DNA from: Holtermannia corniformis
Taxonomy: Eukaryota; Basidiomycota; Tremellomycetes; Holtermanniales
Direction of reading: 5' to 3'
Length of the DNA: 64,000 nucleotides
NCBI GenBank assembly: GCA_001599935.1
Contig: BCIJ01000017.1
Location: 379,798-443,797, forward strand
The notes under the pieces were generated by a model. That model had not been told where the DNA came from and did no database searches. It was given only the letters and a program-made list of their open reading frames with translations. Every line of letters starts with the position of its first letter. Position 1 is the first letter of the stretch. Positions 23,275 through 42,571 of this stretch are shown here, piece after piece. The position numbers and the translations under genes were made by a program.

Positions 23275-24580
23275 CTAGTGCTCGACCTTCCACAGCGTCG
23301 CCTTGCGCTTAGGTTTGCGCGTCACATGAACGGCCGAGCCCGCATCGCCACGGAAAGCCAACACGACGGATTCTTCAACGCTGGGCCCGACCGACTTTTT
23401 ACGAGCGGCCACGACGCGCTTTGCAAACTGGAAGCGCTCTTGGTCGGATCCAAACTTGAACGCGGGTGACTCGACGCAGCGTTTGAGCAGAGTGTAGGGC
23501 AGGGAGGCGTACGTGTTGATGAGGGCCGGGTTGGCGCTCATGGGTGTGCCAGTGGGGGCGAGCTGCGTCGGCAGAGTCCGGATGAGATAAGTGATGCTAC
23601 CGTGTGTTCAGCCTGGCTTCGAATAAGCCGAGCGAGGGGAACCACTCACATGTCCTGCTTGAGCCGCAGACTCCAATCACCATAGCTCAGCATTGCGTCC
23701 TCGCGCCATCCGCCTGAACCTTGGTCGTCGGTGTCACCGTTGACGAGGCCAGGTGGGACCGTGGCGCCCTCGCGATCGACCCACTGCACGTATTCGAGCA
23801 CCGTGTCCGGGCCGAGAGAGTGCCTGCACAGACTGTATGCGTGCGCGCACAGCTCGGGCATGCCGCCGAGCGCAAACGCAGTCGCGAGCACGGCACGGGC
23901 ATTGCTACCGGTCACGAGCGCTTGAGCGGGGGCTAGTATGGTCAGCTTTGTGCCGGGATTGCAATCCAGCACGTACAATACAGGTTCTCGAGCGCGATGC
24001 GGACAGACTGGTAGGTTGTCAGTTTGGAGCTGACGGGTCGACCCGAGCTGATGACCGACCTCGTCCGTCACACTCCCGTCCAGAATCGGGACCCTGACAG
24101 CTTGTCCTGGTCCGCCCATCAAGTGCGCAAGGTACGGGCTTCGAGCGAGCACGACTATGCACAGTCGTCAGTTGAATCTTACATTTAGTCGACTCGACTC
24201 ACTCCGGTGCAGCTTGAAGACCGAGTTGAGTACATGCAGGTCAATGTCACTATACTCGGCTCTGAGAAAGCCAGAGTGGTACAGGTGTGAAGTGAGAGCC
24301 TGCGAGCTGAAGGTTGCGATCAGCTCTTAGGATCTGCTAGTAAAGACCGGTGCGAGCGTGCTCACGCTTCGCCAGCCATTCTCGAACTCTCCGGTACGTC
24401 TACATGTCCGTTCACGAGCGAGCCGTTTGGCGAGTCCCACTGGGTCGCGACCATGGTCTTGTCGAGTGACAGCGACGAGGCANGCGAAGGTGCGGCCGTG
24501 TCGGATGACGACGCTACGGTGGTGTGGGTGTTGAAGGAAGCTAGGCTGGTCGGGGACGGGAGTGATGACTGCTGCGACAT
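23275..24580 (-). CDS. BTB/POZ domain protein
   Basis: Exon 1 begins MSQQSSLPSPTSLASFN and is Ser-rich. After an intron the BTB core reads EYSDIDLHVLNSVFKLHR, then VLARSPYLAHLMGGP and VRVPILDGSVTDE, with a helical region including AVLATAFALGGMPELCAHAY. BTB domains dimerise and often recruit cullin-3 or transcription partners; none can be named here. The C-terminus is basic (TRKPKRKATLWKVEH). The undetermined base at 24483 falls in exon 1 and hides one residue. The gene follows VPS1 on the same strand, with about 230 bp between them. An alternative in-frame ATG lies at 24616. Confidence 0.72.
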
Positions 24581-24810
24581 GCACAATCTCTTGACTGCGA
24601 TCGTACAGTGATCCAACAGTCACTGCGGCCGAGGTCGCCCCAGCCAAACCGTTTATTACGACCGCGTCACGACTTTATCGCTGGCATCATGTTCCGAACC
24701 CATGAGGATATAACTAGCAACATCCCAAGCTCGCGCGCCCTGCTCGATCTCTAGACTGCAGCGACACTGTTGCGCAACATCAGCAGGCAGCAGAGCCAAC
24801 GGCGATCGAC

Positions 24811-27586
24811 TCACATGGCCTCGGCCGCGTTCAACGCGCTGACCATCTTGACGCATTCCTTGCGCCGGGCCACGACATCGGGCGACTCCTTGAGCAGTTC
24901 GTCGAGGACGTCGGGCTCTGCAACGTGATCAGCGCTGTGACGCAGACGCGCACGCGCAAGACTGACTGTACAGGTGCTCGAGCAGCTCTCGCTGCAAGTT
25001 CTCCTTGGCATAGTTGACGAGCGTGAGCGTGATCGCTTTCGGCACCATGTCGATCATCTCGCGCTGTACAGCGATCATCAACTGCGATCCCGAGTCGGAT
25101 CGTGCGAACCGTCACGCACCTTGACGACGCTAAAGTACGAAGTGATCAAAAGCTCTGTACCGTCGTTAGCCAGTGTCCACGGTCGGCCCAGAACGCACTG
25201 ATCACCTCGGTCTCCATCACCTCGCGGTCATTCAACGACGCAACAGGCTTGATGATCGTAGGCGGCTATTTACCATCAGCTCCGCCATCGCCTCCGTGTG
25301 CGCCAACCCACAGCCTCCATGATCGGCCCGCCCTTCCGCTTCGGCGCCTTGTCCTTTGCAAAGAAGCTACCAAAAAAGCTTGGTTCATCCTTCTTCAAGT
25401 CGGTGTCGAGATCTTTGCCGTTGTTGAGGGTCCCTGCCGCGAGCTTGCCCGTCTTGGGGTCGATCGCCTTCTCGGGCGGTTTGTTGGCGTTCAGGCGGTC
25501 ATTCACAATCGCCATGGCCTTGTGGCCGTTCAAAAAGTCGGGGTGAGTCGTGTTGACGTAACATGCTTGCATCCTGCAGCGAGTCAGCACGTTGCAGAAC
25601 GCCAAACGCAGGGCACTCACGCCACCATGTCCGAGACGAGCTTGTTGGTCGGCTGCATTGCGCTCTTGAAAAAGTTGATGACGACCAAGTTGAAGCGATC
25701 CTTGAGCTCGGGGTAGCGTTTGAACGCGCTCTGGGACATTAGCGGGTAACTGTGCGGCGTGACGCGCCACGCACCGTCTTGGTCAAGAGCTGACCCAGGA
25801 TCCTGATCAACTCGTCATACACGAGCGAGCAGCAGCGCAAGCCCGGCTCCTCCAATCGACGGATCTGCTGCTTGACAATCACCTCGAACGCCGTCGTGCC
25901 CACAAAGAGTGACGGCGTCGAACCCTGTAGCCCCATCAGCTCCAGCTCTTACTCGCGATGGAATCAACCCACCGAAGAGTTGTACAGGATCGTCCTGATA
26001 TCCCCATCCTTGACCTGATCAAACGGATCAATCGACTTGACTCCGTTGTTGAACAGTTCGTGGAAGACAAAGCTGATACGTGCGCCACCCGAGAGCTCGT
26101 TGAGTGACAAATCGTTCGTGTTACCATCAATGACGGTGCGGAACTCTGAGCAAAACTCGGTAATGGTCGAAAGGACGACGGAGCCCGGGTTGGTCTCGCC
26201 CATGGCGCCACCGAGCGCCTTGAGCTCTGCAGAGTACTTGGCGAGCTGGCTGGCGATGCGCGCTTTGATGTCGGGCAGGGTTTGGCGAATGTGGTGCATG
26301 AGAATCTATTGCAAACATCGTCAGTTGAGTCCGTCGACTGACTGCGATGCGACTGACAATGTTGAGCTTGCGCGCGAGCCACGGCGTGCCGCAATAGGTC
26401 GACTTGCCAGCGTAGCTCGGGTGCTGCTCAAAGAACTTTTTCTCGTTCTCCAGCGCCGACGAGATCGATTTGGACTGGTCGATATCGCGTTGACCGCGGT
26501 TCACGACGGGGACGTAGCCGAGTCGGAGCGGGATGATACGGCCAGCCAAGATATCCACTACATCTGTGCCCTGGTCCCTGCATAACGTCAGCCTCGATCG
26601 ACCGCACTTCAAGTACCACAACTCACATCAGATCCACCTTTGTCAACACACCAATCGTCCGCGTGCCCTCGGGGTCGACATCACGCGCGAGCTTCAACCC
26701 ATCCGAGTTTGCCAAGTCGGTGTTGGCGGCCGTGACGGCGAGGATGATGGCGTTGGGCTTTGAAATGAAGCGGAGTAGCATCTCACGAATCTGGCGCTCA
26801 ATGTCCCGCGGCTGGTCTCCGACTGGGACTTTGGTCAGACCGGGCAAATCGACCAAAGTGAGAGTCAGGACGTTTGGCGAGAAGATGCGCAGGTTGATAG
26901 GGTTGGGCGAGATACCTATGAGCGCGCATCAGTTTCAGCTCATCGTAATCACGTAGCGAACCCACCGGCATTCTTGCCCGTCATCTTCTCAGTGTCCTTG
27001 ACAATCTCCTCACGGATCTTGGCAAAGTCGTGGAACTTTTGACCGGGCAGGTGGAGGAACTCTCCCCATTCGTCGGCATTGTTCTCATTCTTCTTTTCTT
27101 CTGGCTTTTCCTCGCCATTGGGCTTGGAAGCCGCGGGCCGGTTGATGAGTTGGAGGATCTGGGGTGCTTAGCGCATGGACGGAGTGTGGGTATAGGGCAA
27201 CTCACAAGCGGTCGACGCGTCACAATACCAGTCCCTCGAGGCAAGAAGTCGCGTCCAACAATGTTCTACGCGTAGCCACTGTCAGTGACGACTACAGCAT
27301 CCACGCAGCGAGCCGCACCTCGAGCACCGACGACTTGCCGCTACTTTGGGAACCGATGACGGCGATTTGAGGTAGGTCCTGCGCGGTAAGGATTAGCACA
27401 GCAGTTTCCTCTTTCCAGATTTAGTACCCACAATGTTGTTATTGACGCCGATGGAGGAGAAGACATCTTGGAGCTAAATGGGATCACACGACGATCAGCT
27501 GTGCTCAGACCACGAGGCAAGGGGCTTGGGGGTAGAGGGGCTCGATGGCTGACCTTGTTGATGAGGGAGATGAGTTGTTGGTCCAT
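24811..27586 (-). CDS. VPS1: Dynamin-like GTPase of vacuolar sorting
   Basis: A large GTPase that drives membrane fission at the Golgi/endosome and in peroxisome division. It starts [11 protein letters not shown], and the next exon carries the P-loop [14 protein letters not shown]. Then come [20 protein letters not shown], an insert ending [18 protein letters not shown], the G3 motif [18 protein letters not shown] and G4 [12 protein letters not shown]. The middle domain includes [30 protein letters not shown] and [17 protein letters not shown]. The C-terminal GTPase effector domain reads [18 protein letters not shown] to NAAEAM. The short acidic insert before DEWGEFLH and the wording of G3 fit VPS1 better than DNM1. 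Many introns of about 45-60 nt interrupt it; no frame break was noted. Confidence 0.93.
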
Positions 27587-28249
27587 GGTGCTGATGAGCT
27601 CCTAGAGCTGCTGATGGGTGGTGGTGAGGCGCGATGGCTGGGATGATGTCAGACATTGCAAAGGTGTGGTTGTCGTTCAACGAAGATAACTGCCACCCAA
27701 GCATTCCAGCCAAAGTCTAGCTCATGGACGTGATCTATGCGCCACTGTATGCAGATGTCGTGCGACCGCCGGCTGGACCGACTGCGAGCTGGCTGTGCTC
27801 GTCGAGGCGGTGGCATGTTGCGCAAAAGGACTCACGGGGATGTCTCTACCCGTTCTGACCTTGTGTCTGGCTGTTTGACCGCTCTGTAAGGTCTGGAAGC
27901 TGTTGCCTGTGCTGCTGCCCTGGCGTCTACGCCGTTGTCCAGTCTAGGTCTCGAGTGCAGCGACGTGTCGGTGGCGAGCCAACCGCGCCGTCATCCAAGC
28001 TGCCAGCCAAACCCCACCGTTCTGTACCAACTCCGACAATGCCGCAACCCCCTTCTGCAGCAATGATGATTAACAGCCTGGACAAGCAGCAGGTGTAGCA
28101 GGCATAGATAGATAGACAAAGAGCATGGAGCAAGGTATACACACAATGGCGAAGAAGCGATGTCTGTCATCGACGAGACGCATCACAGCAAAGTGGCACT
28201 CGTGCCTGTCTCGCAGTGCTATGGCGGGATGAGATTCGGCAGGGTCATT
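27587..28249. other. Intergenic between VPS1 and RecQ array
   Basis: No conserved frame. The VPS1 promoter must lie here, and the 3' end of the first RecQ gene is at the right. A short TAGATAGATAG run sits near 28103. This is the left boundary of the RecQ array. Confidence 0.5.
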
Positions 28250-30730
28250 CTACGAGTTCCTCTGACGTACCGAGCAGTTGCCACAGCCTGTGGAAGGCAC
28301 ACTGTCTGCCTCGTTGAAGTACTTGGCCGTTTCCCGCGCATAACCTGTTTCGTTCAAGGTCAACCCCCTCAAACGAGCACATGGAGACTCACACGATGCG
28401 CCGGTCACGACCTTCTTGATAGCCTCGAGATCAACTAGTCTAGCCCGCTGTTTGGCTTGGACAGAATCGAGCAGGCTCTGGAAGAGCTGTTCGAATTCGG
28501 CCTCGGCAATGGACTGGTCGACCCCCTGGCGGACGTCAAAGCGCAGTCGAGCCACTTGTTGATGAGCCACAACCCAACCTTGTTCAACCCAGTACTCGAC
28601 ACGCCTCGCTACTTCGTCCCGAGATAGGTTGTACTTCTTGGCGATGAGCTTGGTATTGACCTAGACCCCGCTTAGCTGCTTTCGTGTGTCCAGCAGCATG
28701 ACTGACCAAACCATCCGCCATACACGAGCTAGCCCAGTGTCGTAGGATGGCCTTGGCTTTCGGAGAAGCGTCATTCTTGAGCTGCGCTCCATGTTCTACA
28801 GAGTTTACCGTGACGCCAATCTCGTAGATTGACCGTGGTGCGCTCAGGAGTTGATGTGTCTTTTCGAGCTCGAACAAGAGGTTGGTCTGCAGATTACGCG
28901 AGCGGGCTCGTTCGTTGCTATTCCAAATCTGTCAGCAAGCCGCTTGCAAAAGTTGAAGCTAGGCAGAGACTGACCCCGATGGACCAAGTAGCGGCGCAAG
29001 CTCCTCGAAATCAACCGTGAGGGTGTGGCCCGACGCCATGCGTTTAAGGATCCAGCGCAGCCACCGCCGAATATACTGGGGCGGGCAGCTAACAAACCCA
29101 TTAAGCGCAGCGAACGCGGTTTTCTTCTATACGGACCTCAAGACTCTTGCGAACCATTCAAGCGTGGAAAGATCATTGTTGCAAAGGTACGTCACGGTCT
29201 CGCAAGGTGCGCCATCGCGCCCGCCGCGTCCCATCTGCTGGCTGCGCGCTGTCAGCTTGCACAAAGGCCGTGAACAAAAGACGAACCTCCACGCTTCCAT
29301 GCTCGGAGGCAGCATGAGATTGTGTACTTGTCGAACATTCGGCTTGTCGATCCCGAGACCGAATGCGCTTGTGGCGCAGATCACGCTGCGCTCGTTGGCC
29401 ATGAACCACTTTTGGGCTTCTGCCGTGGTTCACATCAGACCCTAGAAGTTACCGAAGCCAGCGGTATACCTATTCGGTGGGACTGAGCCATACCCGCGTG
29501 GTAGGCTCTGACGTCCTCGATGCCTGAAGATCGAAGACGCTCAGCCACCTCGGTGGTCTGTCATCTTCAGCGGCATCCTGCTACTGCCCGCTGGCCCACC
29601 TCATCTCGTTTGGTGACGTAGACGATTGCGGAGCCTGCAGATGATATATAAGAAATCCTTCCGCTGCGATCCCCTTACCTGTACGACGCTGAAGCATAGG
29701 CACCAAATGGTCAAACTTGACATCGGTATTCTTTGCCGATACCACGGAGATATGCAGGCTAATGACCGGTCAGCGTTATCTTGGATTAGGCGCCTACGAC
29801 TTTTTGCGATACACAGGGACTTTGCAGACATCACTCGCTGAATTCAATCCGAACTGCTCGCAGATATCGTTGAGCACCGCCGGCGTCGCGGTCGCGGTAA
29901 GCGCCATAACAATCTCGATATTGTGTGCCTTGATGAAGTCGGGAATTCGCCGGTAGTCTGCAAGTAGTCAGCGACGCTGAAACTCTACCGGATAAGCTCG
30001 AGGGCTGCTCTTGCAGTCACTCACCAGGCCGAAATGATTGACCCCACTGACGTAGTCAGTCTTTGGCGCAGGAGTGCGGCTGACTAACCTGACTGATGCA
30101 GTGCGCTTCGTCAATGGCAACTAGCGATATCTCTCGCCCCTTCAAGACCTGCTGCAGCTGCAGTGTCGCCTCGGGTAATGCTCTGTCCACTGCCGGCCAA
30201 TCGGTTGTTGCGTTGCTGAACAGCCTAAGAATATCCATGTCAGCAGTTTCAACAACAAAACTTTACATCTGTAGGCTGACCTCTCGGGCGCTATGTAGAG
30301 TAGCTTGCAGCTCTATATAGTGACAGGGTCAGCCTCTGTGCGTGTGCGCACTCTGAACTGACGCCGGCCGCGATTTTCCGAAGTACGACCTCTCGGTCCG
30401 CGTCCGTCATGCTCGAGTCGAGCCAGCTGGCGGCAACGCCTCTACGCTGCAGCGCAGTGACTTGATCTCTCATGAGTGACTGTAGCGGGCTGATGACCAC
30501 TGTCAGGCCCGGCAGTAGCAGTCCAGGTAGCTGATAGCATAGACTCTTGCCGCCCCCTGTCGGGATGCACACAGCAGAGGACTTGGCTTCGATCAACGTG
30601 CGGCGAACCACCTTCTCTTGAATATGCGTGAGTCTTACCAAGGACGTCAGCTTGGAACCTGTAAGCAACTATCTCGAACTTACTCGTGTATCCCGAATGT
30701 GCTTGCCGCAACGGTGCGAGCTTGCTGCAT
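28250..30730 (-). CDS. RecQ-family DNA helicase, array copy A
   Basis: A 3'-5' DNA helicase of the RecQ family. The first certain exon ends TFGIHE. An intron closing at an AAG acceptor leads to LTHIQEKVVRRTLIEAKSSA and Walker [17 protein letters not shown]. Motif II is SLVAIDEAHCISQ and motif III is MALTATATP. Motif V reads TSAFGLGIDKPNVRQVHNLM and motif VI QQMGRGGRDG. About 200 residues follow with a helix-turn-helix-like stretch (LIAKKYNLSRDEVARRVEYW). A C-terminal Zn-binding motif reads CESPC, then AKYFNEADSV and CGNC. All catalytic motifs are present, so activity is possible. The AAG acceptor is unusual, and the true start may lie upstream of the ATG at 30730. Confidence 0.75.
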
Positions 30731-31342
30731 GGCGTCTCCATGAAGACCTCGTAGTGGGCTTAAGGCTGAATACTGACGTCGGAATGGTCCAGGCAAGATG
30801 TTCGGCGCTACAGGCTTACAAAACGCCCAGGACTGCATGGCAGTAGGCCGGCGAGCGAAAGAGCACACTGATACTCCTTGTCTGTGCAGAGTAGCACTCA
30901 TCCGTCTTACGCCAATCTTGCTGTAATCAACGGCTCTCGGCGTGTGACTGTTCAAGCAGCCACACCAACTCGCTACATGTGATACGATCATTCACAGTTT
31001 CACACGCAGAAGCTCCGGGAGGATCGGCTTCTGCCGCCTTCCGAGGTCTTGCGCTAACGACGGCCTTCAGGGTCCAACACCGATGCTGCCCTTGATAGGG
31101 ATAGGAAACGACAGGTTTGCATATCAGCTACGGTCAGTTCACTGTAGTACCGGGCTGTTCTACACGTACCGGCGAGTCGGGGTATCGCCAGACGTGCCGC
31201 ACGTACTTCGTGACTACACGGCGGGGCCAGTCGTGCGCTCGTTTCAATGCCACGCAAGAGGTTGCTGCACATCCGCAAAGACACTTATCACATGCGCGGG
31301 ACGAGCAAGCTGGACACTATCGATACAACGCAGATACCTATC
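30731..31342. other. Intergenic between RecQ copies A and B
   Basis: Short frames only. It may contain an upstream exon of copy A, since the first certain exon begins with a conserved MQQAR helix rather than an obvious N-terminus. Nothing else is recognisable. Confidence 0.4.
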
Positions 31343-34098
31343 CTACAAGCCTCGAGAGTCCCCGAACCCCACGCGCTTTCCAGTTCGACATAACTGCAAA
31401 GCGCACATCAGTAGCAAAGCAACCGGGATTGACAAGGTGATGCTACAAACAGTGCAATCACCGCAGTGTCCTTTTGGCACACCATCTACCTCGCCAAAGT
31501 ACTGTGATAGTGCTTGAGCATAGCCTAGAAGTAGATAAGACTGATGCGCCTCTCTCCCAATGGCACTCACATGTACTTCCAGTCACAATGGCCATGATCT
31601 GTCTCAGGTCCGCCAGCTTGCTTTCCTTCTTCGCCGCTAGCGCGGCTTCGAGCGAGGTGGCAAGATCCGATATCCTGGCAGTCGATGGGAAGAACAAATT
31701 ATCCAAGGTCTGGAAGCGCAACTGCGCGATCTCCAAGTGACCTTCGACCCAACCGTTGCCAAGCCATCGTTCCACGCAAGACTGCAATTCAGACTGCGGG
31801 ACTGCAAAGCGCTCTGCAATCAATTTGATATTGACCTAGATGGCGGTCAGCTCAATATGAAGCTCCGAGCACTTAGCTTACTAATCCTTCCGATACCCCC
31901 AGCTCTTTCCAGTGAGCTCGAATCGCAGACGCGGCGCGCGACTCGTCGGAGGAGATTTTACCCCAGAGGAGCGCAGAGACCTTTGAAACCCCGTCGTTGT
32001 ATACTGTGATCGGTGTTGACAAGAGCTTGTGCTTTTGTTCAAGCTCAAAAAGCAGATTTAGTTGCAAATCCCGGAGTGACCCTCTAGCAGAGCTGTCAGA
32101 GGGACCATATCAGCTTGATGGGCTCTCTCATATTCCTACACATACCCTTTGACGGAGAGGCATGCCGAATACTCCTCCAGGTCTATCTCTAATATCTGCC
32201 CAGGACGATACTCTGAGAGAATGGAATCTAGCCAGGATTCAATGCTCTCGAGGTCACGTCTGGCATTCGAGCAGTCAATGGCGGTCGTACGAGAGAATAT
32301 GGCTCACGTCATGTTGTCAGCAAACCACTGCAGCGTCTTCAGGTCGCCTTGGCAGAGGTATGTGAAGGTCTCGCACGGTTCTCCGTCTCGTCCGCCACGT
32401 CCGATTCTTTGACTGTGGTGTTCGTTGGGGTGAGCTTTCCAGGATGACGGCTCAGTTGCGTACTTCCAATCCTCCACGCTTGGAGGTAAGGTCAAACAAT
32501 GGATCTGCCTCACGTTGGGTTTATTAATCCCAAGACCAAAGGCAGTCGTAGCACAGATCACACTTCGCTCCGCCGACATGAACCAGTCGTGAGCCTCTTC
32601 AGTGATTTGTGTTTGTGTTTAGCAGGACAACAGCTTTTACCCTTCAATTTACCTTGTCGTTCTTCGTTGGTCAAGCCCGCATGGTAAGGTTTGACGACAA
32701 CGCCCCGGCTAGCCAGCCGACGTGCGATGTCATACGCCTTTGAAAGTCAACACGGCGCAGCTGGACAAAGCAATCTCGCCGCACCTCAGCCCGAGTGGTA
32801 ACGTACAAAATTGCAGAACCTGCTTGCATCAGCTGCTCGACTGGCGGTGACACCGCAACGTTGTCGTACCAGTGCGATGTTCGAGCACAGGCACTGCCAA
32901 CTCCAGCTTCCTACTCGTGTTGGCCGCTGTGATCACTGAGAGCCGAAGGCTTGTGGCCATAAGCAAGTATATCAGCATGCTCGACTCTTTGCGCTCACTT
33001 TGGGCGGAAAACTGGGGCCTTCACGACATCACGCACGGGGTGCAGTCCGTAGTCTGCACATAGCTCCTCCAGGATCTTCGGCGACGCTGTTGCAGTAACA
33101 GCCATGACGGTGTGGATACTGTAATCCAGAATGAAGCTCTGTAATCGCCGAAACGCTTTTCATTATATTAGCTGAGAGTGTAGTACATTCGACATGGTAC
33201 ACACCCAGTCGGAACGTCTGACCCCACTGGGACTAGTGGTGGGCTCCAATCAAGGATATATAGTATAGCCAGGACGTACTTGGATGACACAGTGTGCCTC
33301 GTCAATGACTAGTAATGAGATCGTGGACGACTGCAGTATCATTGTAAGTCGGCTGGCCATACCGGCCGTCGTCGTGTCAGCGGGTCCGTGCTCGACAATG
33401 GGCAACGTCGTGAGACTGTGCGTGCGCGGTTATAAGCCTTCGAAGCATGGCCTGGTGACACTTACCGCTCTGGAGTAGTGTAGAGAAGCTTGCAGTCCTG
33501 CAACATCAACATCAAGTACCTACAGGCCCGTCAGACTCACTCCTCGAGCTAGTTGATCGAGCGCGCGGCGCTGCTCCGACTGTAACATGCTCGCATCAAG
33601 CCGAACAGCTGACACTCCGATGGCCCTCAATGTATCCGTTTGGTCTTTGATCAAGGCTTGAAGAGGGCTCACTACGATCGTGAGTCCGGGGAGCAGCAAA
33701 GCCGGTATCTGGTAGCAAAGGCTCTTGCCACCGCCCGTGGGTGCACAGACTAGTGTTGAAGCGCCTCCGAGAAGCGTCCGCTTGATCACCACCTCCTGGA
33801 ATGGCTTGAAGCTACCCTCAATGAGTGCATTGTCCTTGCATGCCAGTCGAACTGACGCTGCGATCCCAAAGGTACTTTGCAGCAATGTCTGTACGTGCCG
33901 CATGAGTTTAGACTCTTCCAGGTGGGCGGCGGTTGGAGTCTCAGCAAGCTTCTGGCGCAGTGGAGGTTGGATAGCCTGCAAAGAGCTCGTCAACGTCTGC
34001 TCATGATTGCCGATGTGATCGCGACTCACCCACAGATGGTCGACCTCCGCCAGCTGCATATCCGGAATCATCTCGCTATCCGAATCGTAGTCTGACAT
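31343..34098 (-). CDS. RecQ-family DNA helicase, array copy B
   Basis: It starts MSDYDSDSEMIPDMQLAEVD. After two introns the helicase core begins FKPFQEVVIKRTLLGGASTL, Walker [21 protein letters not shown] and VVSPLQALIKDQTD. Motif II is LLVIDEAHCVIQ, motif III VTATASP, motif V TTAFGLGINKPNVRQIHCL and motif VI QRIGRGGRDG. The region after the core has a winged-helix-like segment (LIAERFAVPQSELQSCVERW). The C-terminal Zn site reads VTGSTCEC, then ALSQYFGEVDGV and HCGDCTVC. Exon order and splice phases match the other three copies, supporting origin by tandem duplication. Divergence between copies is high, so the duplication is not recent. All catalytic residues that I could check are intact. 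Confidence 0.78.
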
Positions 34099-34890
34099 CG
34101 TGAATGCTTTGAGCTGGATTGAACACTCAGGTAGAAATGAGAATACATTGCGCACGGCTCTCACAAGGTCGCGACCGCACGACCTCGATACACTACTCGA
34201 GGCTAGCGGGACCCTGTCGTGCACAGACTCAGGGGTTGAGGATCGCTGACCGTGCGTCGTGTAAAGCACATGCTGCAATTGATTCAATATGGTGCTGCTG
34301 CTGGAGTTGATGGTGCTGAGGACGCCGGAAGCCAGCACTATGCGTTTCAGGTTAAAACGCGAAATGCGTATCAAGTGAGGGTGAGAAGCAGTAGGCTCGC
34401 GTTCAGGCCACAACTAGCTTCGTTTAGGCCTCCCAAATAGCACTGCCGCAAACCCCTCAGTGCTTGCTGCTCAGCAGAGCGCTGTCACTTGCTTTCTATG
34501 AGATCTAGAAGCCATACAAACCTACTGAGAGATGTGCATGTTGCTCCAAGAATACATTAAAGCGCAGGGAAAAGAGAAAAGTACATGCTACCCTCACTTT
34601 ACACGCAACTCGGCGGATTTGCCCACAACGCATAGTCAATGAGTCTTGCTGCAGTCATCGAGCATGTACCCGATATTAACTCTGAGCGCCCCGTCATGTC
34701 GCGGGTCAGCAGGATTCGAACGCCGGAGCGAGGGAGCTTCTCCACTTCTCCAATCAGCGGCGGCAACGCAGAGCGCAGACAGCAAGGCCAAGCAGGTAGC
34801 AGTGAATGGTATATATATACGGCGAAGACAAAACATACACAAATGGCTATTTGGAGATCCGCCTATGACGCCGAGCAAGACGAGGGGCAG
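34099..34890. other. Intergenic between RecQ copies B and C
   Basis: This stretch should hold the promoter of copy B. Bases 34113-34440 keep an open frame continuous with copy B's first exon on the minus strand, so a longer 5' exon is possible. An AT-rich patch around 34800-34815 (TATATATAC) is present. No other gene was recognised. Confidence 0.45.
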
Positions 34891-35133
34891 CCAATAGGCT
34901 TGATTGCTTCCTGCGAAACCTGGGTTCGGCTTTTGGGCCCCTTGACGGGAGGCAGAGGAGTGGAGATAGGCGAGGGCGCGGAACGCGGCGAGGGAACGCA
35001 ATTCTGGAGGCCAACAGACTTGATCGCTTGCTGCGAAACCTGAGTTCGGCTTTTGGGCCCCTTGGAGGGAGGCGGAAGACTAGAGAAGATAGGCGGGGGG
35101 ACGTTACGCAGCGAGGGAACGCATTTCTGGGGG
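34891..35133. repeat. Tandem 120-bp repeat at the 3' end of RecQ copy C
   Basis: Two units, 34891-35010 and about 35011-35133, share long identical runs such as CTGCGAAACCTG, GTTCGGCTTTTGGGCCCCTT and GCGAGGGAACGCA. Offset is 120 bp at the left and 123 bp at the right, both multiples of three. On the minus strand each unit stays open and encodes a 40-residue Pro/Ser/Lys-rich module with KGPKSRTQVSQ. The second unit overlaps the last codons of RecQ copy C (LPPEMRSLAA plus stop at 35104). Confidence 0.8.
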
Positions 35134-37088
35134 CAAGCATGAGCGCATGTTCCTCCTGGGCGGCACATGACCTACTGAGCACTTGTTGCATCGCTGGGAG
35201 AGCACACCTTCTTGGTCACCCAGATGAGCAGCCAACGCTCGCGACAGACCTACACGTCGAGGCAAATCAGCGTCACGGTGCGTGAAGACAAGAAGCACTT
35301 GCAGCGGTCTCCGGTGAGCACAAGCTGGATCCGTTCCGCAGCCAGCGTTCGGCGCACCAAGCCTGCCGGAGTCTGATCGTTGCGACTGAGCAGTACACAT
35401 GAGCTGGAGCCCTCACGTTTGAGCATGCTTCCGTCAGACTTACTCCTCGATGACAAACCGTTCCGCATTGCGGAAGTCACCCGGTGACAGATATGTCACC
35501 GCCTCGGCTGTCTTCCCGTTGCGCCCCGCGCGGTCTAGTTGACGGCTGATTGCAAGATGTAAGGAATCAGCAATGTGAAAGCTCTTCGAAACGACGTACG
35601 ACCATTCATCCAAGCTAGGCGGCACGGCGAATGTATGGATCTGACCGACATCCGCTTTGTGACACGGGAATGCCAACACGTTGGTGGTGCATATAACGCT
35701 TCGCTCCGTGTTCAAGAACCACGTTTGCACCGCTTGAGAGTGTTACAGCGAGAATTGGTGCGCGATCTTGGGAATCACTCACCTTGTTTCTCAGTATCAG
35801 ACAAACCCGCATGGTAGGGCTTTACGTCAACCACGCCAGCTTTGTGCATAGCTTCAGCGACGGAGCAGGCCTGCGCACGTTAGTATCGGACGCGCGAACT
35901 TGAACCTACCTCGCGTCGGGTAGCAGCATAGATCAATGCAGAGCCTCGCGAAATCAGTCAAGTTGGCCGCGTCGTCTCACGCAACCGCTCACTAGATCCT
36001 GATCGGGCTTTGAGCCTGTGCGCTACGGTAGCCAGCTTGTGCTTGTAATCAACGCAGTTGATGACTGCTATGTATAGACTTTCGGCTATCTGTCAGTCCC
36101 ACATCAAGGATCGAAGTCAACGTACTCTGCGCGCCACGCTTTACCCTTACAGATCCCGTCGGCGGGGTCAATGCCATATTGATTACACATGTCTTGCACA
36201 CTTTCATCCGGCTCCAAACCCGAGATGACAAGCGAGGTGTCAACTCGCAGGCGAGAAATCACACCGGGCAGCTGCTTGAGAACTGCACGTTGTTGAGCAG
36301 CAGCTTTCGGTAGCGTTGCCACGCCCGTCTTACCCGGCTGGAATCCCGCTGCCCACTGTTTCGGATTACATTCAGTCTCATCAAAGGGCACCGCTCACTC
36401 ACGTCCAGTATCGTGCCCGCATCGTAGATCACGAGGAGACTGATCGATATGTTCTTGACGCATGGGACGAAGGTGACTGAGTAGCCTAGCGAATCTATAT
36501 CGTGACTTGCGGCGCGTATCAAGCCTGAGCGCATAAAGCTGGAGATTATCAGCGATCGCAGTCATACTGTCACCACGGCCATACCGTTGCGGAGTCACCA
36601 CGAGAATCTTGCATTGCTACCGGACGGTCAGGTCTGCGTGAAATCCGTTGAGACTCACGCGAGTGGCGAGGGCGGCCATGATGCGGGCTTCCTCTCCATA
36701 CGACGTTCTCCCATCCATGCCCTCCACCAATGCATCTACGGCTCTCATTGCCTCGACTTGCTCCCACAGAGGCACCCGCTGAGGGCAAATCACGACCGTC
36801 AAACCAGGCAACAAAAGTGCGGGTATCTGATATAAAATGCGCTTGCCACCTGCCGCCGGCAAGGTTGCAAGCGTGGGCTTGCGCTCGAGAATACGCTTTA
36901 TCACAGGCTCCTGGACGGATCTGAAGCTACGTTGTGGAGATCGCTCAGTACACGGTCTCCACGTACGATATGACTTACCTGGAGAAACCGAATTTGTCTT
37001 GTAGCAGTCGTTGCGCATTGGACATCAACTCATCAATGTCTGTGACCGTCGTGCGTTTCAGAAGCTGCTCGAGAAAAGTGTCGGACAT
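35104..37088 (-). CDS. Degenerate RecQ-like pseudo-helicase, array copy C
   Basis: The frame and splice pattern parallel the other copies. It starts MSDTFLEQLLKRTTVTDID and continues FRSVQEPVIKRILERKPTLA. Every core catalytic motif has changed: Walker A is LPAAGGKRILYQIP (GGGKS lost), motif II is LLVIYDAGTILD (DEAH lost), motif III is VISGLEPDESV (TATATP lost) and motif VI is DRAGRNG. Fold segments such as ALIYAATRRE, PYHAGL and RSVICTTNVLAF remain. The roughly 150-residue helix-turn-helix block is missing, but ALAAHLGDQEGV with CNKC survives at the end. Introns have intact GT/AG and branch sites. It is either a pseudogene decaying only in its active site, which is unlikely by chance, or a retained non-catalytic protein. 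Confidence 0.65.
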
Positions 37089-37303
37089 GATGTTGTCGCT
37101 CAAGATGCAGCCAGCTCTTCCTGATATGGTCCACGATCGAAGCTGCGTCCACAGCGTTCGAGCGAGACCATGCGGAGTGTCCGATCAAGGGCGCTCGCAT
37201 CTGTTCGAGGGTCCAGAGGACAACCGGGCAGATCAGTACACTAGGCCATCCTGCCCGGTCAGCACAGACCCAATGGCCGGGATCAGATCTTGCATATCAT
37301 GCA

Positions 37304-40268
37304 TCACCTTTTGCGCCTGTTGGCCGCGCCGCCACCTGGAGCAGCCCGCTTTGTTGCGGTAGACAACGACGCTGGGAGGTTCTTGTATCCACACTTGACG
37401 CACTCTTGCTCAAAGATGTCGACGAGCGAGTCGAACGCGAATTCGCCACACGAGCCGAAGACGGCGGACTTGCCCAGGGACAGCGCACTGTGTCAAAGGC
37501 ATCAGCACAGACTAAGGGCCATTCAAAGGACATACGTCAAACGCGGGGTCGAGATGCCGAACGCGCACCGCGCTAGCGCCCGGCTGTCGTCTCTGATCGG
37601 GCACGCGTGGAGGATCTGCAAAAGACTTGGTACCTGGCCGGGTTGCGCGTCACGTTTGCACTGACCGCTTCAATTAGGCTCAGCGGCGGGGATCTCTTGT
37701 ACTCCTTTTCGAATTTGACCGGTTCTAGGGTCTTGCACCACTGCAGTCTACGTCAGCAGGTCTGTGCGGAAGGGTGACGGCGGGCATACAGTGCAGTGAT
37801 TACACATCTCATCTGGGACATTGTCACCATCCCCAAAGTACTTTGCGATGGCGAATGCAAAGCCTGCCAGCGGCGTCAGCGGTGGCCGAGGATGCACTGC
37901 GACTCACACTCCTCGCCCGTTGCGACGTCGATGACCTGGTCAAGCCTCGCGAGCTCCTTCTTCTCTCTATCCTCCATCGTCTTACTCAACTCTTCCGCGA
38001 GCTTCTCGACGTCCTCTGGCGTGCTCGGCAGCTCCTTGCGCGGCTTGAGCAATGCATAGCGGTTGCGCACTTGGCTCGGTTTCGAGTTGACCAAGCCACT
38101 GAGCTCCCAATGGCTGATCCGCATTGACAAAGCTTCACGGCGGATACCCGACTTGCTAGCAATATCGACCACGTTGACCTACATTCGATCAGCCTTGTCC
38201 TGTGAGATTCACACCACGCACGTTGCCCCTCGTCCAGTACCTGTTGATAGCCGTACCCTCTGGCGACTTGTCCTGCTTGACCTGCTCGAGCCCACCAGGC
38301 GCTTTGGCAGTGAGCGCGAATTGCTCATAGTAGGGCGTAGCGGCACGCAAGAGGCCGTAGTCGAGCTCGAGCAGTGCGAAGAGAAGGTTGAGCATGCTGG
38401 GCTACGAGGATCAGTCGTTGTGGTGAGCCAGTTCACTTACTCGAATGTCGTAGTCGCGTGACATGTGCCAGAGACTAAAGTCGAGAGTGTTGTCCTGCGA
38501 CACGGGTGCGGAGAAGACGGTATTGAGCCAGTTGACGAGTACGAGCTTGGAGCATCTATGGTCAATCAGTATTACTTCTTGACATTGTCTGGATACTCAA
38601 CGCGTCGCCCCGAGCAAAGCCTTCCAGGACCGGCACGTCCGTTGGGCAGAGGTACATGCAGCACTCGGACACGAGACCGTCCCGTCCTGCACGACCGACT
38701 TCTTGGCTACCTCGACGTCAGCGCTGCATTCACGCGCCGCACACACTACGCACCTCCACGACTCGACGCTCTTTGGCAACATGAGATGGTGGATCTGCCT
38801 GACGTTGTTCTTGTCGATCCCCATGGCGAACGCAATAGTGGCACACACGACACCGCGATCGCTCGCCATGAACCAGTCTTGTACGTCTGTCAACCGTCAG
38901 CGCGTGACCGGACCGTGCCTCGGCGCGGTACGGACCTTTACGGGCGTCTGCAGTCATACCCGCATGGTACATCTTGATCTGATCGACACCCATGCTGATG
39001 AGATCCTCGACAGCGTTCGCCGCCTATTCGGGCGTTTAGTGCATGCAAGGCGAGCCGTCTGATCTGCTCACTTGCTGCTGCAGCGTCACATAGACGATTG
39101 CTGGACCTGGTATTGACAGTCAACACCTGCCGCGGCGTTTCCGGACGAGCGCACCTTTCCTAGCTCTGAGCTTTGGCGCTAGATCCACCAACTTGTCCTT
39201 CATCGTCTTTGCCACCTTGACAGACAGATGCAGACTTTGAGACCGATCAGTGACCTCGTCGTTTGATCAGCACCCACTTTTCGCGATACACCGACGTCTT
39301 GAACACGCCGTCTTGCTTGTCAATGTCAAAGCCTCTGCAGATATCGTCGATCACGCTGGCGGTCGCCGTCGCTGTCAGAGCCAGCACGCGCTCAGCGTTG
39401 ATCTCTTTCGCAAAGCGCGCGACCTTGAGGTATTCTACGGTGGTAGGTCAGAGGCGCAGTGGTCAGCTTAGTGTATATGTGACAGACCTGGACGGAAGGA
39501 TGGACCCCACTGAGAAGCAGAGGTCGTTAGCCGGGCATACAGCGGCCAGGTAAGAGAACCGCACCTCTGACACACAGTGCGCCTCGTCAACCGCGAGCAG
39601 AGAGATAGTGGAACCCGCCAGCAATCGTCCAAAGCTCTCTGCGCTCGTCAGATCCCAGCACCTCATCACTCGTCCAGCTTCTAACCGTTATTGAGCCTAT
39701 CCCGGATCAGCAAGCTGTCACACAGGGCATGACCGCACAGACCTCTCGGGCGCCACATACAAAATCTTCAAATCCTACACTCGATCAGCTTGACCCCTAG
39801 GCCGCACGGAACGCACCCCCGTCCTGATCCCATTCTTGACCGCCTCGGCCTCGTCCCTGCCCAGACTGGAATCCAGACTGGCGGCCTTGACGCCCTTGCG
39901 CCTCAGCACGTCCACCTGGTCTTTCATCAACGAGATCAGCGGGCTGATGACGATTGTCAAGCCTGGGAGGAGGATGCCGGGGATCTGGTAGCACAGGGAT
40001 TTGCCGCCGCCGGTCGGGAAGCTGACGAGTGCAGAGGCTGAGGAGACGAGGAGACGGGAGATGACGGCTTGCTGGGCTAGCTTGAAGCTGTGGGTAGTCA
40101 GGATGGGTACGGAGTGGTCACTCGACTGGGCTGGGACATGGCAACAGTGGTGATGCGAGTATCCGAGCACGGGCTTCAAACTAAGAAACCGCGTACGCAC
40201 AAAGGGTAGCCAAACGTCTCGCGCAGCTCGTTCTCAGCTCGCTGCATCATGTCAATATCCTCACTCAT
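37304..40268 (-). CDS. RecQ-family DNA helicase, array copy D
   Basis: This copy has the most canonical motifs. It starts [20 protein letters not shown]. Exon 2 holds [20 protein letters not shown], Walker [21 protein letters not shown] and [16 protein letters not shown]. Motif II is [12 protein letters not shown], motif [17 protein letters not shown], motif [21 protein letters not shown] and motif [12 protein letters not shown] winged-helix-like part includes [20 protein letters not shown] and a Lys/Glu coiled coil. The Zn site follows: [10 protein letters not shown], then [20 protein letters not shown]. The C-terminus adds [17 protein letters not shown] and ends basic (ANRRKR), possibly a nuclear signal. 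Its closeness to the family consensus suggests it is the founding copy. Lies 95 bp downstream of the T5orf172 gene's stop. Confidence 0.82.
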
Positions 40269-40362: not shown

Positions 40363-42262
40363 CTACATGCCTCCTATACACACGGTACGCACAAAGCGTT
40401 CCCACCGCGATACAACCTCGTACACCACGTCCTCATACACCCTCGCACCATGGCGAGTCTTGGACAGCGGAAAGATCTCCTTGTGCACCGTGCCGCAGTC
40501 TGTGCAGGGCGCTAGCAGCCGCGCGAGCGGGGATCGATCGGCGAGCTCGAGATGGATCAGGCCTGGAGCTGAGCGTTAGCGTGATTGATGGCATGGGAGG
40601 CGGCGAGGGACTGACGCTCGAGTCGTTTGACCGCGCCGCACATTTGCCGGCCTGTCGTGCCGCCGTCTGTGGCGCCTGGGAGGAGCGAGCTTGCTGAAGC
40701 GCGGTCCGCAGCGCCTGCTAACGGAAAGATGTCGCGCAACGTTGGAGTGTGCGACGAGCACCCTGTGGTACCATCTGCTTCAACATGGTGCTCTTCAGTA
40801 TAGTCGACCGACGACTCACGCTGCGTCCACTGTCCGATCCGCCGAGGAACATTGTCCGTCCTGCCAACTTTGAAATACGCCAGATCGTCCGTTGCGAGAT
40901 CTGCCGCTGTCAGTGATCACGTTTTACAAGATTGCCAAAGGTTCGACATACCCCGCAGCTCGTAAGCATAGATGAACCCAGGTGATTCCTGTCCATCAGC
41001 TACACACACAGATTGAACATTGTACACACCTTGGTCGAAAGCTCGGCCTCCATCGTCATCCGCAGCAGCGCGCGCGTCTGCAGCCCCAATTCCTCCGGTA
41101 TCCAATCTATCATGCTCGTGTCAGTTGATCCCGACCACTCGCGGCACACACCGTCAAACTCGACCCAGATCGCCTCGGCCGCTCCATAGCGCCAATAGAA
41201 GCCATCAACGGCACAAATCTGCCCCGCGTGGTCTTTACAGTACCGTGCGCGGGTTCGTGCCGGCCCGGCATCATCCTCGCCCTCGAGGTCGAGGTCGAGC
41301 CAGGGTGCCGAGGTCTTGACGAGGCGTTTACAGGGTAGACCTTGGCGCGTGATCCCGGCGCACTGTGTTGTACTGCTAGACGCGGGACTGGGACTGGGTG
41401 ATGCAGATGCGGCGATCCGGATTCGAGATCGATCGGTGATGTTGGCGCTTACGCTTGGAGTGACGGACACGGCGGATTTGACGCGCCGGCGGGGGGTGCA
41501 GGGTGTGGGGTCGGAGGATGAAGGAGCATCGAGGATGATTGGGTTGCTTTGGGTCCCGATTGAGGGTTTTCGCCGCGAGGGGGGTACAGGATCCGTTGGT
41601 GGCGTTGAGAGGGGGTGGAAGGACGGCTTGAAGGCCTTGACGGGCGTCTTGGCTGATGCGGGTGTAGTTGAAAACGTGTTGGGTCGTGATGAGGGTCTTG
41701 GTGAGGTAGATGCTGATGCTGGTGCTGGCGTTGGGACCGTGAGATGGCTTGGCGCTGGTGCCGAGTTTGGTCGTTGATCTCCATTCGCCACGTAGGATGT
41801 TCGATCCACCACCTGCTGCCGCTCGCCCGACCTCGCGTCCGGTCGCGACCCAGCCGCAGCATAGCCCGTCACCGTATACGGCCGCGTCGCCAGATCCACA
41901 TCTGGCGGTCGACCCCCCGGCGGCGCGTAATACCCAGCATACTCCCCCGGGTAGCTCTGCACGGGCGGTGGTGCCGGCCTCGTTGCAGGCCGATACGGCC
42001 ATTGCGGGCCTCGATCACCCGGTAGAGCCGGTAACGGCTTCTCTACGCCCGGCGAGATGCGCACGGCTCCCATGTCGGTACTCAGGCTGTGCATGTAGTC
42101 GCGCCATTGTGCCTTTGCGTTGGACGGGTAGGCTTCGACCCGCGGTGGGGAGGGCAGCGGCTGGATGTTGGCAAAGTAGCGAGTGCGAAAGGTCGAGCCG
42201 GCGGCGGTGCCAGGCGGGAGCGGTGGTCTGTAGCGTTCGAGATGGGTGTGGTCGTGGTTCAT
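40363..42262 (-). CDS. T5orf172 (GIY-YIG-like) domain protein
   Basis: Starts MNHDHTHLERYRPPLPPG. The first 300 or so residues are Pro/Ser/Ala-rich and probably disordered. A Cys/His cluster follows (TQCAGITRQGLPCKRLVKT ... RYCKDHAGQI), then a conserved region DWIPEELGLQTRALLRMTME. Across further introns comes GFIYAYELR, then DDLAYFKVGRTDNVPRRIGQ, the core of the T5orf172 family, and later LLAPCTDCGTVHKEIFPL. The domain belongs to the GIY-YIG nuclease superfamily and is common in fungi, where its role is not established. The stop at 40363 assumes no further splice after RWERFVRTVCIGGM. Confidence 0.75.
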
Positions 42263-42571
42263 GCTGCATACGAGATGGTTCTGTCCAGCTCAATGGTGTC
42301 TATGTGTTATGACAATCCGCATCACCCTCGCTGCTCGCTGCACCGTCTCTGTGCTTGTCCGCCTGGAGCAGTCGAAGCCAGCACCGAGCTGCCAGCTACT
42401 GGACGCACCGAGGATGTCAACAAGGTCAAGGTGGTACAAAGTGGTGCGATCACGTGAAAGTGGATCATTAGGATAAATTAAAACAAACACCAACCGCGTT
42501 CTCGCCACCACCACTCTCACCGCGAGCGTCTCCACCAAGCGAGCGTACAGCCAGGCAGGCAGCGCAGCACC
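42263..42571. promoter_or_regulatory. Divergent promoter T5orf172 / PRP3
   Basis: A 309-bp spacer between opposite ATGs. It includes an A-rich patch (AAATTAAAACAAACACC near 42475) and a CA/CC-rich leader before PRP3. No defined factor site is recognisable. Confidence 0.45.

Follow-up and report, generated by a model that had tools for sequence, protein, structure and literature searches.

The window, a 64,000-nucleotide stretch of Holtermannia corniformis contig BCIJ01000017.1, holds four RecQ-family helicase genes (RQ4, RQ3, RQ2 and RQ1) arranged head to tail on the minus strand at 28183–40268. The sequence demonstrates that these genes have open spliced frames and a common origin, that one of them has lost most of its catalytic motif residues, and that all four retain an exact zinc motif. 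RecQ helicases are guardians of the genome and are usually few per genome. We consider it rather probable, on this evidence, that RQ4 represents the ancestral gene, that RQ1 and RQ2 are diverged and probably active, and that RQ3 is a retained non-catalytic copy, all arising by local duplication. Neither a tandem RecQ array nor a RecQ pseudohelicase in fungi is named in the titles and abstract openings listed by searches of the open-licence literature.

Layout and common origin of the array

The spliced models of RQ1–RQ4 contain no internal stop or frameshift and bear out the four tandem minus-strand genes proposed in the initial annotation, with RQ1 ending 67 bases beyond the left border first noted (28250). 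The genes are spaced by 215 (RQ4/RQ3), 764 (RQ3/RQ2) and 612 bases (RQ2/RQ1). Pfam scans, trees, motif counts and the zinc check used an RQ1 model of 593 residues, one exon of which was later corrected to give the model in Table 1. When RQ2 was searched against its own genome, at least 23 matches were found, 18 within the array and 5 weak.

Table 1 Features of the RecQ array and its flanks (window coordinates).
Feature	Position	Strand	Description	Basis
RQ4	40268-37304	-	684 aa, 19 exons	Predicted spliced model
RQ3	37088-34863	-	529 aa, 14 exons	Predicted spliced model
RQ3 last exon	34863-35126	-	Tail in which a KGPKSRTQVSQ-holding stretch occurs twice in similar form	Translation, by eye
RQ2	34098-31343	-	667 aa, 16 exons	Predicted spliced model
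RQ1	30730-28183	-	603 aa, 16 exons	Predicted spliced model; start codon uncertain
Left flank	24001-27200 (scanned)	-	One exon of a dynamin-family (VPS1-like) gene	Dynamin_M, E=8.7e-32
Right flank	40700-42289 (borders approximate)	-	T5orf172-domain gene	PF10544, 20.2 bits against a cut-off of 20 (marginal)

The flanks had been described as VPS1 and T5orf172 genes. The left assignment is supported by the Dynamin_M match, and the right one is marginal, its Pfam match having been obtained on hand-joined exons; the open reading frame at 41003–42289 alone has no Pfam match. Three of the ten stretches scanned gave a Pfam match, and PRP3 and transketolase genes also lie on the right.

The four copies share one exon/intron plan, as had been proposed. 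Intron positions and phases are identical between RQ1 and RQ2 at 15 of 15 sites, RQ4 agrees at 14 of 15, and 11 of the 13 RQ3 introns agree in position and phase within a tolerance of two residues. Before the RQ1 exon correction, RQ1 and RQ2 showed 14 exact coincidences, where 2000 random draws averaged 0.12 and never exceeded 3, so their intron sharing is far beyond chance. In a tree rooted on bacterial relatives, RQ1 and RQ2 are sister to RQ4 plus its relative from Naematelia encephala (support 93/86), and RQ1–RQ3 lie on one side of a branch supported at 100/100; the RQ3 branch is very long (5.74), and RQ3 pairs with RQ2 only insecurely (97/73). A grouping of RQ1, RQ2 and RQ4 without Naematelia is rejected only marginally (AU p 0.048). 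By these sequences RQ1–RQ3 form a fast-evolving clade beside RQ4 and Naematelia. The common introns and the tree together support a common origin by local duplication. The possibility that the four genes belong to unrelated RecQ clades was tested and not borne out.

RQ4 and its relation to known RecQ helicases

RQ4 comprises a helicase core, a winged-helix-like stretch, a zinc module and a C-terminal domain, with Pfam matches to DEAD, Helicase_C and RecQ_Zn_bind; its model begins ~20 residues ahead of the core (start codon inferred). We searched a large protein collection with RQ4, RQ2 and RQ3, taking the best 120 of 7998, 7994 and 675 matches, respectively. N. encephala P0001 is 60% identical to RQ4 over 97%, and the best 120 of 7998 matches cover 85–99% of RQ4 at 46–60% identity. 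A strict Walker A pattern is missed by four of these 120: two read AGGKS, one has an insertion and one apparently lacks the N-terminus. All 120 match DE[AS]H and motif VI. On its sequence, RQ4 is a conserved basidiomycete gene, the ~690-aa RecQ named 'ATP-dependent DNA helicase' of which P0001 is an example, and which carries the C-terminal domain in the relatives inspected. The array differs from this gene in having four copies in tandem, three without the C-terminal domain and one degenerate.

The initial annotation had reported Walker A, DEAH and GR[AG]GRDG in three copies; these are intact in RQ1, RQ2 and RQ4, which carry the full RecQ motif set (Walker A, DEAH, aromatic-rich loop, GRxGRDG), and RQ3 is degenerate. 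The PF16124 zinc module scores above cut-off in RQ2 and RQ4 and at 22.7 bits, below the cut-off of 25, in RQ1; the Pfam scan finds none in RQ3, although its cysteine spacing is exact. No RQC or HRDC domain was found by Pfam in RQ1–RQ4 at E up to 0.001, which sets them apart from the Sgs1/BLM type, where an RQC winged helix follows the zinc module and an HRDC domain is present. A separate BLM/RECQ1-like gene lies on contig C28 near 180–182 kb; the RQC profile nevertheless has no match in the genome, so this search misses intron-split or diverged domains. The HRDC profile gives two weak matches, on C15.

A structure was predicted for P0001 as a relative standing in for the RQ proteins. Among the best 50 entries, human RECQL4 (PDB 5lst) has the highest query TM-score (0.63), and VIA-align aligns 537 residues of the model to it versus 339–450 for the other 49 entries. 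By Z, 5lst ranks 12th (36.6), the top score of 44.0 belonging to D. radiodurans RecQ. A winged-helix stretch between the core and the zinc module is predicted in the Naematelia relative and in eight C-terminal pieces, some of which give weak helix-turn-helix Pfam matches; a profile of the C-terminal half matches 5lst weakly in this stretch (E 0.026). The modelled layout of the Naematelia relative thus resembles that of human RECQL4. The core sequence is closer to bacterial RecQ and RECQL5 than to RECQL4. The RECQL4 subfamily has an Sld2-like N-terminal domain, and RQ4, unlike RECQL4, has no N-terminal extension, no such domain being found in the ~20 residues before its core. MZB is a marker of Hrq1, and its profile has no match in the genome in a type of search that misses intron-split or diverged domains. 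Hrq1 is given as the yeast RECQL4-like protein (PMC7074392).

Diverged and degenerate copies

RQ1 and RQ2 lack the C-terminal domain and keep intact helicase motifs (Walker A, DEAH, motif VI). Measured against 46 relatives in alignment A1 (P0142 entered twice), RQ1 retains 69 of 77 family-conserved motif residues and RQ2 63 of 77, compared with 33/53 and 32/52 other conserved ungapped sites; motif residues are thus kept preferentially (Fisher p 0.0004 and 0.014, respectively). Among the best 120 of 7994 matches to RQ2, full-length relatives are all at most 34% identical, and partial ones reach 35–42% over only 51–61% of its length. RQ1 and RQ2 are probably fast-evolving, active helicases.

RQ3 carries PAAGGKR, YDAG in place of DEAH, and DRAGRNG. 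The threonine and serine of Walker A are gone from it, as are DEAH, motif III, the greater part of motif V and the winged-helix stretch; it keeps only 30 of the 77 motif residues (47 lost) and shows no preference for them (30/77 versus 23/43 other conserved ungapped sites; p 0.13). Its amino acids differ from those of the other copies at 65–68% of core codons, and its repeated tail was not seen in translations of RQ1, RQ2 and RQ4 compared by eye. It still matches E. coli RecQ across the whole core (E=1.6e-31) and is open over 529 codons, following the intron plan with usable borders at 13 introns. The C-x19-C-x2-C-x2-C zinc motif is exact in all four copies, in RQ3 depending on a GC-AG intron at a conserved place. 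Full-length relatives among the best 120 of 675 RQ3 matches are all at most 34% identical; of the matches checked, three fail DE[AS][HQ] and none fails the Walker A or motif VI patterns.

The reading that fits RQ3 best is of a non-catalytic RecQ that has been retained. The alternative, which we regard as possible but on the unlikely side, is that RQ3 is a slowly decaying pseudogene, that selection on RQ1 and RQ2 is relaxed, and that only RQ4 matters in a relic array. The motif and winged-helix losses of RQ3 would fit such decay, as would the absence of close relatives of RQ2 and RQ3 among the matches listed and a GC3 of 0.605–0.655 in RQ1–RQ3 versus 0.738 in RQ4. Third codon positions are saturated among the copies (0.62–0.68 differences). 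Third- relative to second-position change gives a ratio of 1.53–1.80 in RQ3 pairs versus 1.77–2.42 in other pairs, lowest for RQ3–RQ4, as partly relaxed constraint would give. Against slow decay stand the open frame, usable introns and exact zinc spacing of RQ3, and the preferential retention of motif residues in RQ1 and RQ2. Simulated neutral decay of RQ2 moreover shuts the frame long before the divergence of RQ3 is reached: with indels (1000 runs) the frame survived in 0.1% of cases at 5% change and never at 10%, and with substitutions alone in 9% and 0.5%. The spliced aligner can hide damage, since decayed copies looked clean in 8, 5, 1, 1 and 0 of 25 cases at 2, 5, 10, 20 and 30% change. 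A frameshifted RQ3 pseudogene is disfavoured, with some doubt. Of the earlier proposal of an old duplication with retained, perhaps specialised functions, the old divergence of the copies (27–48% identity) is supported, and retained specialised function stays conjectural, RQ3 having lost most catalytic residues and no close relative of RQ2 or RQ3 being among the matches listed.

Origin and significance of the array

In the account we favour, an ancestral intron-rich RecQ gene, today RQ4, would have been duplicated in place in a tremellomycete lineage, with unequal crossing-over the probable mechanism, at about the time of the divergence from Naematelia or earlier. RQ4 would retain the original form of the protein and, presumably, its work as a 3'-5' DNA helicase. 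A derived line would have lost the C-terminal domain and given rise to RQ1 and RQ2, which retain ATPase and helicase motifs, and to RQ3, which would have lost its motor motifs and winged helix yet been long maintained as an open, spliceable frame with a zinc module. The likeliest role for RQ3 is DNA or partner binding, with modulation of the active RecQ forms. We infer expression of the genes, activity of RQ1, RQ2 and RQ4, and inactivity and a partner role of RQ3. A full functional set, in which active RQ1, RQ2 and RQ4 are regulated by a pseudohelicase RQ3 whose DNA- or partner-binding zinc module is the reason for its retention, is a rather unlikely proposition. Utp25, described as a pseudohelicase (PMC9539457), is an RNA-helicase relative in ribosome assembly and not a RecQ; its likeness to RQ3 lies in being a pseudohelicase.

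That repeat-induced mutation of duplicates, and not selection, drove the divergence is very unlikely. The array is lower in GC (0.553 versus 0.604–0.605 in the two flanks) and higher in TpA/ApT (0.71 versus 0.54–0.55), as such mutation might leave it, but the frames are open and CpG observed/expected is 0.91–1.07 in the four genes. Classical RIP, by generally known thresholds, lowers (CpA+TpG)/(ApC+GpT), which is raised here (1.15–1.25); the dinucleotide ratios of the array carry no clear RIP signature.

An inward move of subtelomeric, telomere-linked RecQ helicases is more improbable still. These genes share a RecQ-like core and superfamily with the array, which lies 37.7 kb from the right end of its contig, C17, where the telomere repeat is absent. 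The telomere repeat of the genome is CCCCCTAA, and TTAGGG in three copies has no match. Subtelomeric-type genes of the same genome lie at contig ends on C2, C36 and C4 (full frames of 1155–1178 aa) and, shorter, on C43 and C28, with telomere repeats on C2 and C4; four are near-identical and one diverged, and the two scanned match the zinc family just below cut-off. They are intronless with a long N-terminal region, whereas the array is intron-rich with divergent copies. The relation of RQ4 to a conserved basidiomycete gene, the tree, the intron plan and the layout also disfavour such an origin, consistent with the earlier view that the array is not of subtelomeric type. An assembly artefact is scarcely credible for copies only 27–48% identical.

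Graded motor loss at one locus, from intact to probably motor-dead, would allow RecQ roles without unwinding to be tested, and the array would let one test how a genome-guardian gene escapes constraint. If the role proposed for RQ3 is true, tandem duplication would have created a natural RecQ subunit without catalytic activity beside its own targets.

Gene models and common origin of the array

Gene models for the four head-to-tail RecQ-like genes, RQ1–RQ4, were built from minus-strand stop-to-stop frames and with a home-made spliced aligner, for which the RQ4 protein served as guide and the RQ4 introns did not; splice borders were then corrected by hand. The 61 introns measure 39–113 bases, with GT-AG borders in 60 and GC-AG in one (in RQ3), and none of the four spliced models contains a frameshift or internal stop. 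The array (28183–40268) is AT-richer than its flanks (GC 0.553 vs 0.604–0.605); intron GC is 0.501–0.535 in RQ1–RQ3 vs 0.576 in RQ4.

Location of the array genes (window coordinates) and of loci near contig ends (C, contig; L, locus)
Feature	Location	Strand	Description
RQ4	40268-37304	-	19 exons, 684 aa
RQ3	37088-34863	-	14 exons, 529 aa
RQ2	34098-31343	-	16 exons, 667 aa
RQ1	30730-28183	-	16 exons, 603 aa; start codon uncertain
L027	C2:1-9000		near-end intronless RecQ-like gene
L032	C4:1015000-1024000		near-end intronless RecQ-like gene
L029	C36		near-end intronless RecQ-like gene
L030	C43		near-end intronless RecQ-like gene
L031	C28		near-end intronless RecQ-like gene
Second ORF family	L027 from 2663; L032 from 6539	+	

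All 15 introns coincide in position and phase between RQ1 and RQ2, as do 14 of 15 between RQ4 and either of them. RQ3 matches each other copy within two residues at 11 of 13 introns, nine of them exactly; the other two flank the zinc motif with phases (1, 0), as in RQ1, RQ2 and RQ4, and in our reading are misplaced by the alignment because RQ3 lacks the stretch preceding that motif. Random placement yields a mean of 0.09–0.14 coincidences and a maximum of 3, far below those observed, which upholds the initial annotation of four paralogues with one exon/intron plan. The copies are also, as it proposed, strongly diverged, with identities of 47.5% (RQ1–RQ2), 42.8% (RQ1–RQ4), 39.3% (RQ2–RQ4) and 27.3–28.7% (RQ3 to each).

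The degenerate copy RQ3

Across 137 columns conserved at ≥90% in 46 relatives, 77 of them motif columns, RQ4 keeps 132 (75 motif), RQ1 102 (69), RQ2 95 (63) and RQ3 53 (30), 17 of the 137 being gaps in RQ3. In RQ3, DEAH reads YDAG, 6/6 conserved residues of motif III and 9/11 of motif V are changed, and the winged-helix stretch is missing. The Walker lysine, both motif VI arginines and the zinc motif C-x19-C-x2-C-x2-C, the last as in the other copies, are preserved. The C terminus carries a new repetitive tail, in which a roughly 45-residue repeat containing KGPKSRTQVSQ was seen twice by eye (34863–35126, minus strand).

In neutral simulations of a 443-codon stretch, 5% change left the frame open in 9.0% of runs with substitutions alone and 0.1% with indels (n = 1000 runs); at 10%, the values were 0.5% and none. 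Decay trials with an aligner allowed to bypass damage were less clean-cut than this plain frame simulation, with 8, 5, 1, 1 and 0 of 25 seeming intact at 2, 5, 10, 20 and 30% change. RQ3 core codons show a 65–68% amino-acid difference from the other copies, and third/second-position ratios of RQ3 pairs (1.53–1.80) lie at the low end of other pairs (1.77–2.42). For most of its history RQ3 was probably maintained as an open frame with a product that probably lacked catalytic activity, and it may recently have been released from selection.

Relatives and RecQ type

Pfam DEAD and Helicase_C matched all four copies, and the zinc family scored above cut-off in RQ2 and RQ4, below it in RQ1, and was not listed for RQ3. 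Among the best 120 of 7998 RQ4 matches, the nearest is Naematelia encephala (P0001; 60% identity over 97%), which points to a tremellomycete host; the remaining 119 show 46–53% identity, and the named ones read as basidiomycetes. No other Tremellales (e.g. Cryptococcus, Tremella) were noticed among these 120, and RQ4 relatives were possibly lost or diverged in those lines. The best listed RQ2 matches (120 of 7994) are bacterial, unnamed or ascomycete, at 30–34% over 86–94% of RQ2, with further ones at 35–42% covering about half; RQ3 matches (120 of 675) reach 25–32%. Neither search listed a close relative.

In the 40-row tree that includes RQ3, a branch supported at 100/100 has RQ1–RQ3 on one side, and RQ4 and Naematelia form a pair (99/93). 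In the 30-row tree that omits RQ3 and is rooted on bacteria, RQ1+RQ2 are sister to RQ4+Naematelia (93/86), and a constraint keeping RQ1, RQ2 and RQ4 together to the exclusion of Naematelia is rejected only marginally (AU p 0.048). Long branches restrict what these trees can show.

In RQ4 and its relatives the helicase core is separated from the zinc module by ~170 residues that include a winged-helix-like stretch, and a C-terminal domain lies beyond the zinc module. P0001 was modelled with AlphaFold2 (mean pLDDT 90.1). Of the 50 structural matches listed for this model, human RECQL4 (5lst) had the top query TM-score (0.63). In a separate comparison, VIA-align aligned 537 residues to 5lst (model residues 1–562) vs 339–450 for the other listed entries, though by Z 5lst ranks 12th (36.6), with D. 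radiodurans RecQ at the top (44.0). A C-terminal-half profile ranked zinc modules of RecQ and RECQL5 at the top, with a weak 5lst match (E 0.026) that falls in the stretch N-terminal to the zinc module, and the core sequence is nearest to bacterial RecQ and RECQL5. The N-terminal part of RECQL4 is Sld2-like; because the RQ4 family lacks such a part, we describe it as RECQL4-like in layout and do not assign it to RECQL4.

Four bacterial proteins (P0121, P0127, P0129, P0137; some named Thermoanaerobaculia) have the domain order of the fungal family, including the C-terminal domain, and an old inter-kingdom transfer is possible. Clavulina sp. has two members (P0093, P0113), whose entries both give 177,051 bases as the longest contig, and therefore perhaps a second, independent local pair. 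In Rhizoctonia solani relatives (P0115, P0120) Walker A reads AGGKS.

Genome setting and proposed mechanism

The assembly comprises 20.2 Mb in 55 contigs. CCCCCTAA repeats occur at ends of C2, C3 and C4 and at none of the inspected ends of C17, C28, C36 and C5; two further ends read N. The array ends 37.7 kb from the right end of its contig, C17 (457,785 bases). Subtelomeric-type RecQ genes lie separately, as intronless frames on C2, C4, C28, C36 and C43, in contrast to the intron-rich array, in agreement with the earlier view that the array is unlike telomere-linked helicases. Four of these five are near-identical and the C4 copy is diverged; the two scanned matched DEAD and Helicase_C, with the zinc family just below cut-off. 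They have a long N-terminal region, and the PDB matches listed (60 of 127) cover the helicase part only. By eye, a stretch of this region (...GHTSSTARAYYG...) recalls a tyrosine recombinase. Members of a second ORF family, 388 and 401 aa long, accompany such genes at two or more contig ends, and C28 also holds a BLM/RECQ1-like gene. The same split is seen in Agaricus bisporus var. burnettii, for which 19 RecQ gene models in subtelomeres are reported, distinct from three copies located elsewhere (PMC7473861).

As read from the sequences, the array would have arisen by local duplication of a RecQ gene, loss of the C-terminal domain in a derived line and rapid divergence thereafter. In this proposal RQ4 would be a helicase, RQ1 and RQ2 would probably be helicases too, and RQ3 would be a putative non-catalytic relative binding DNA or a partner.
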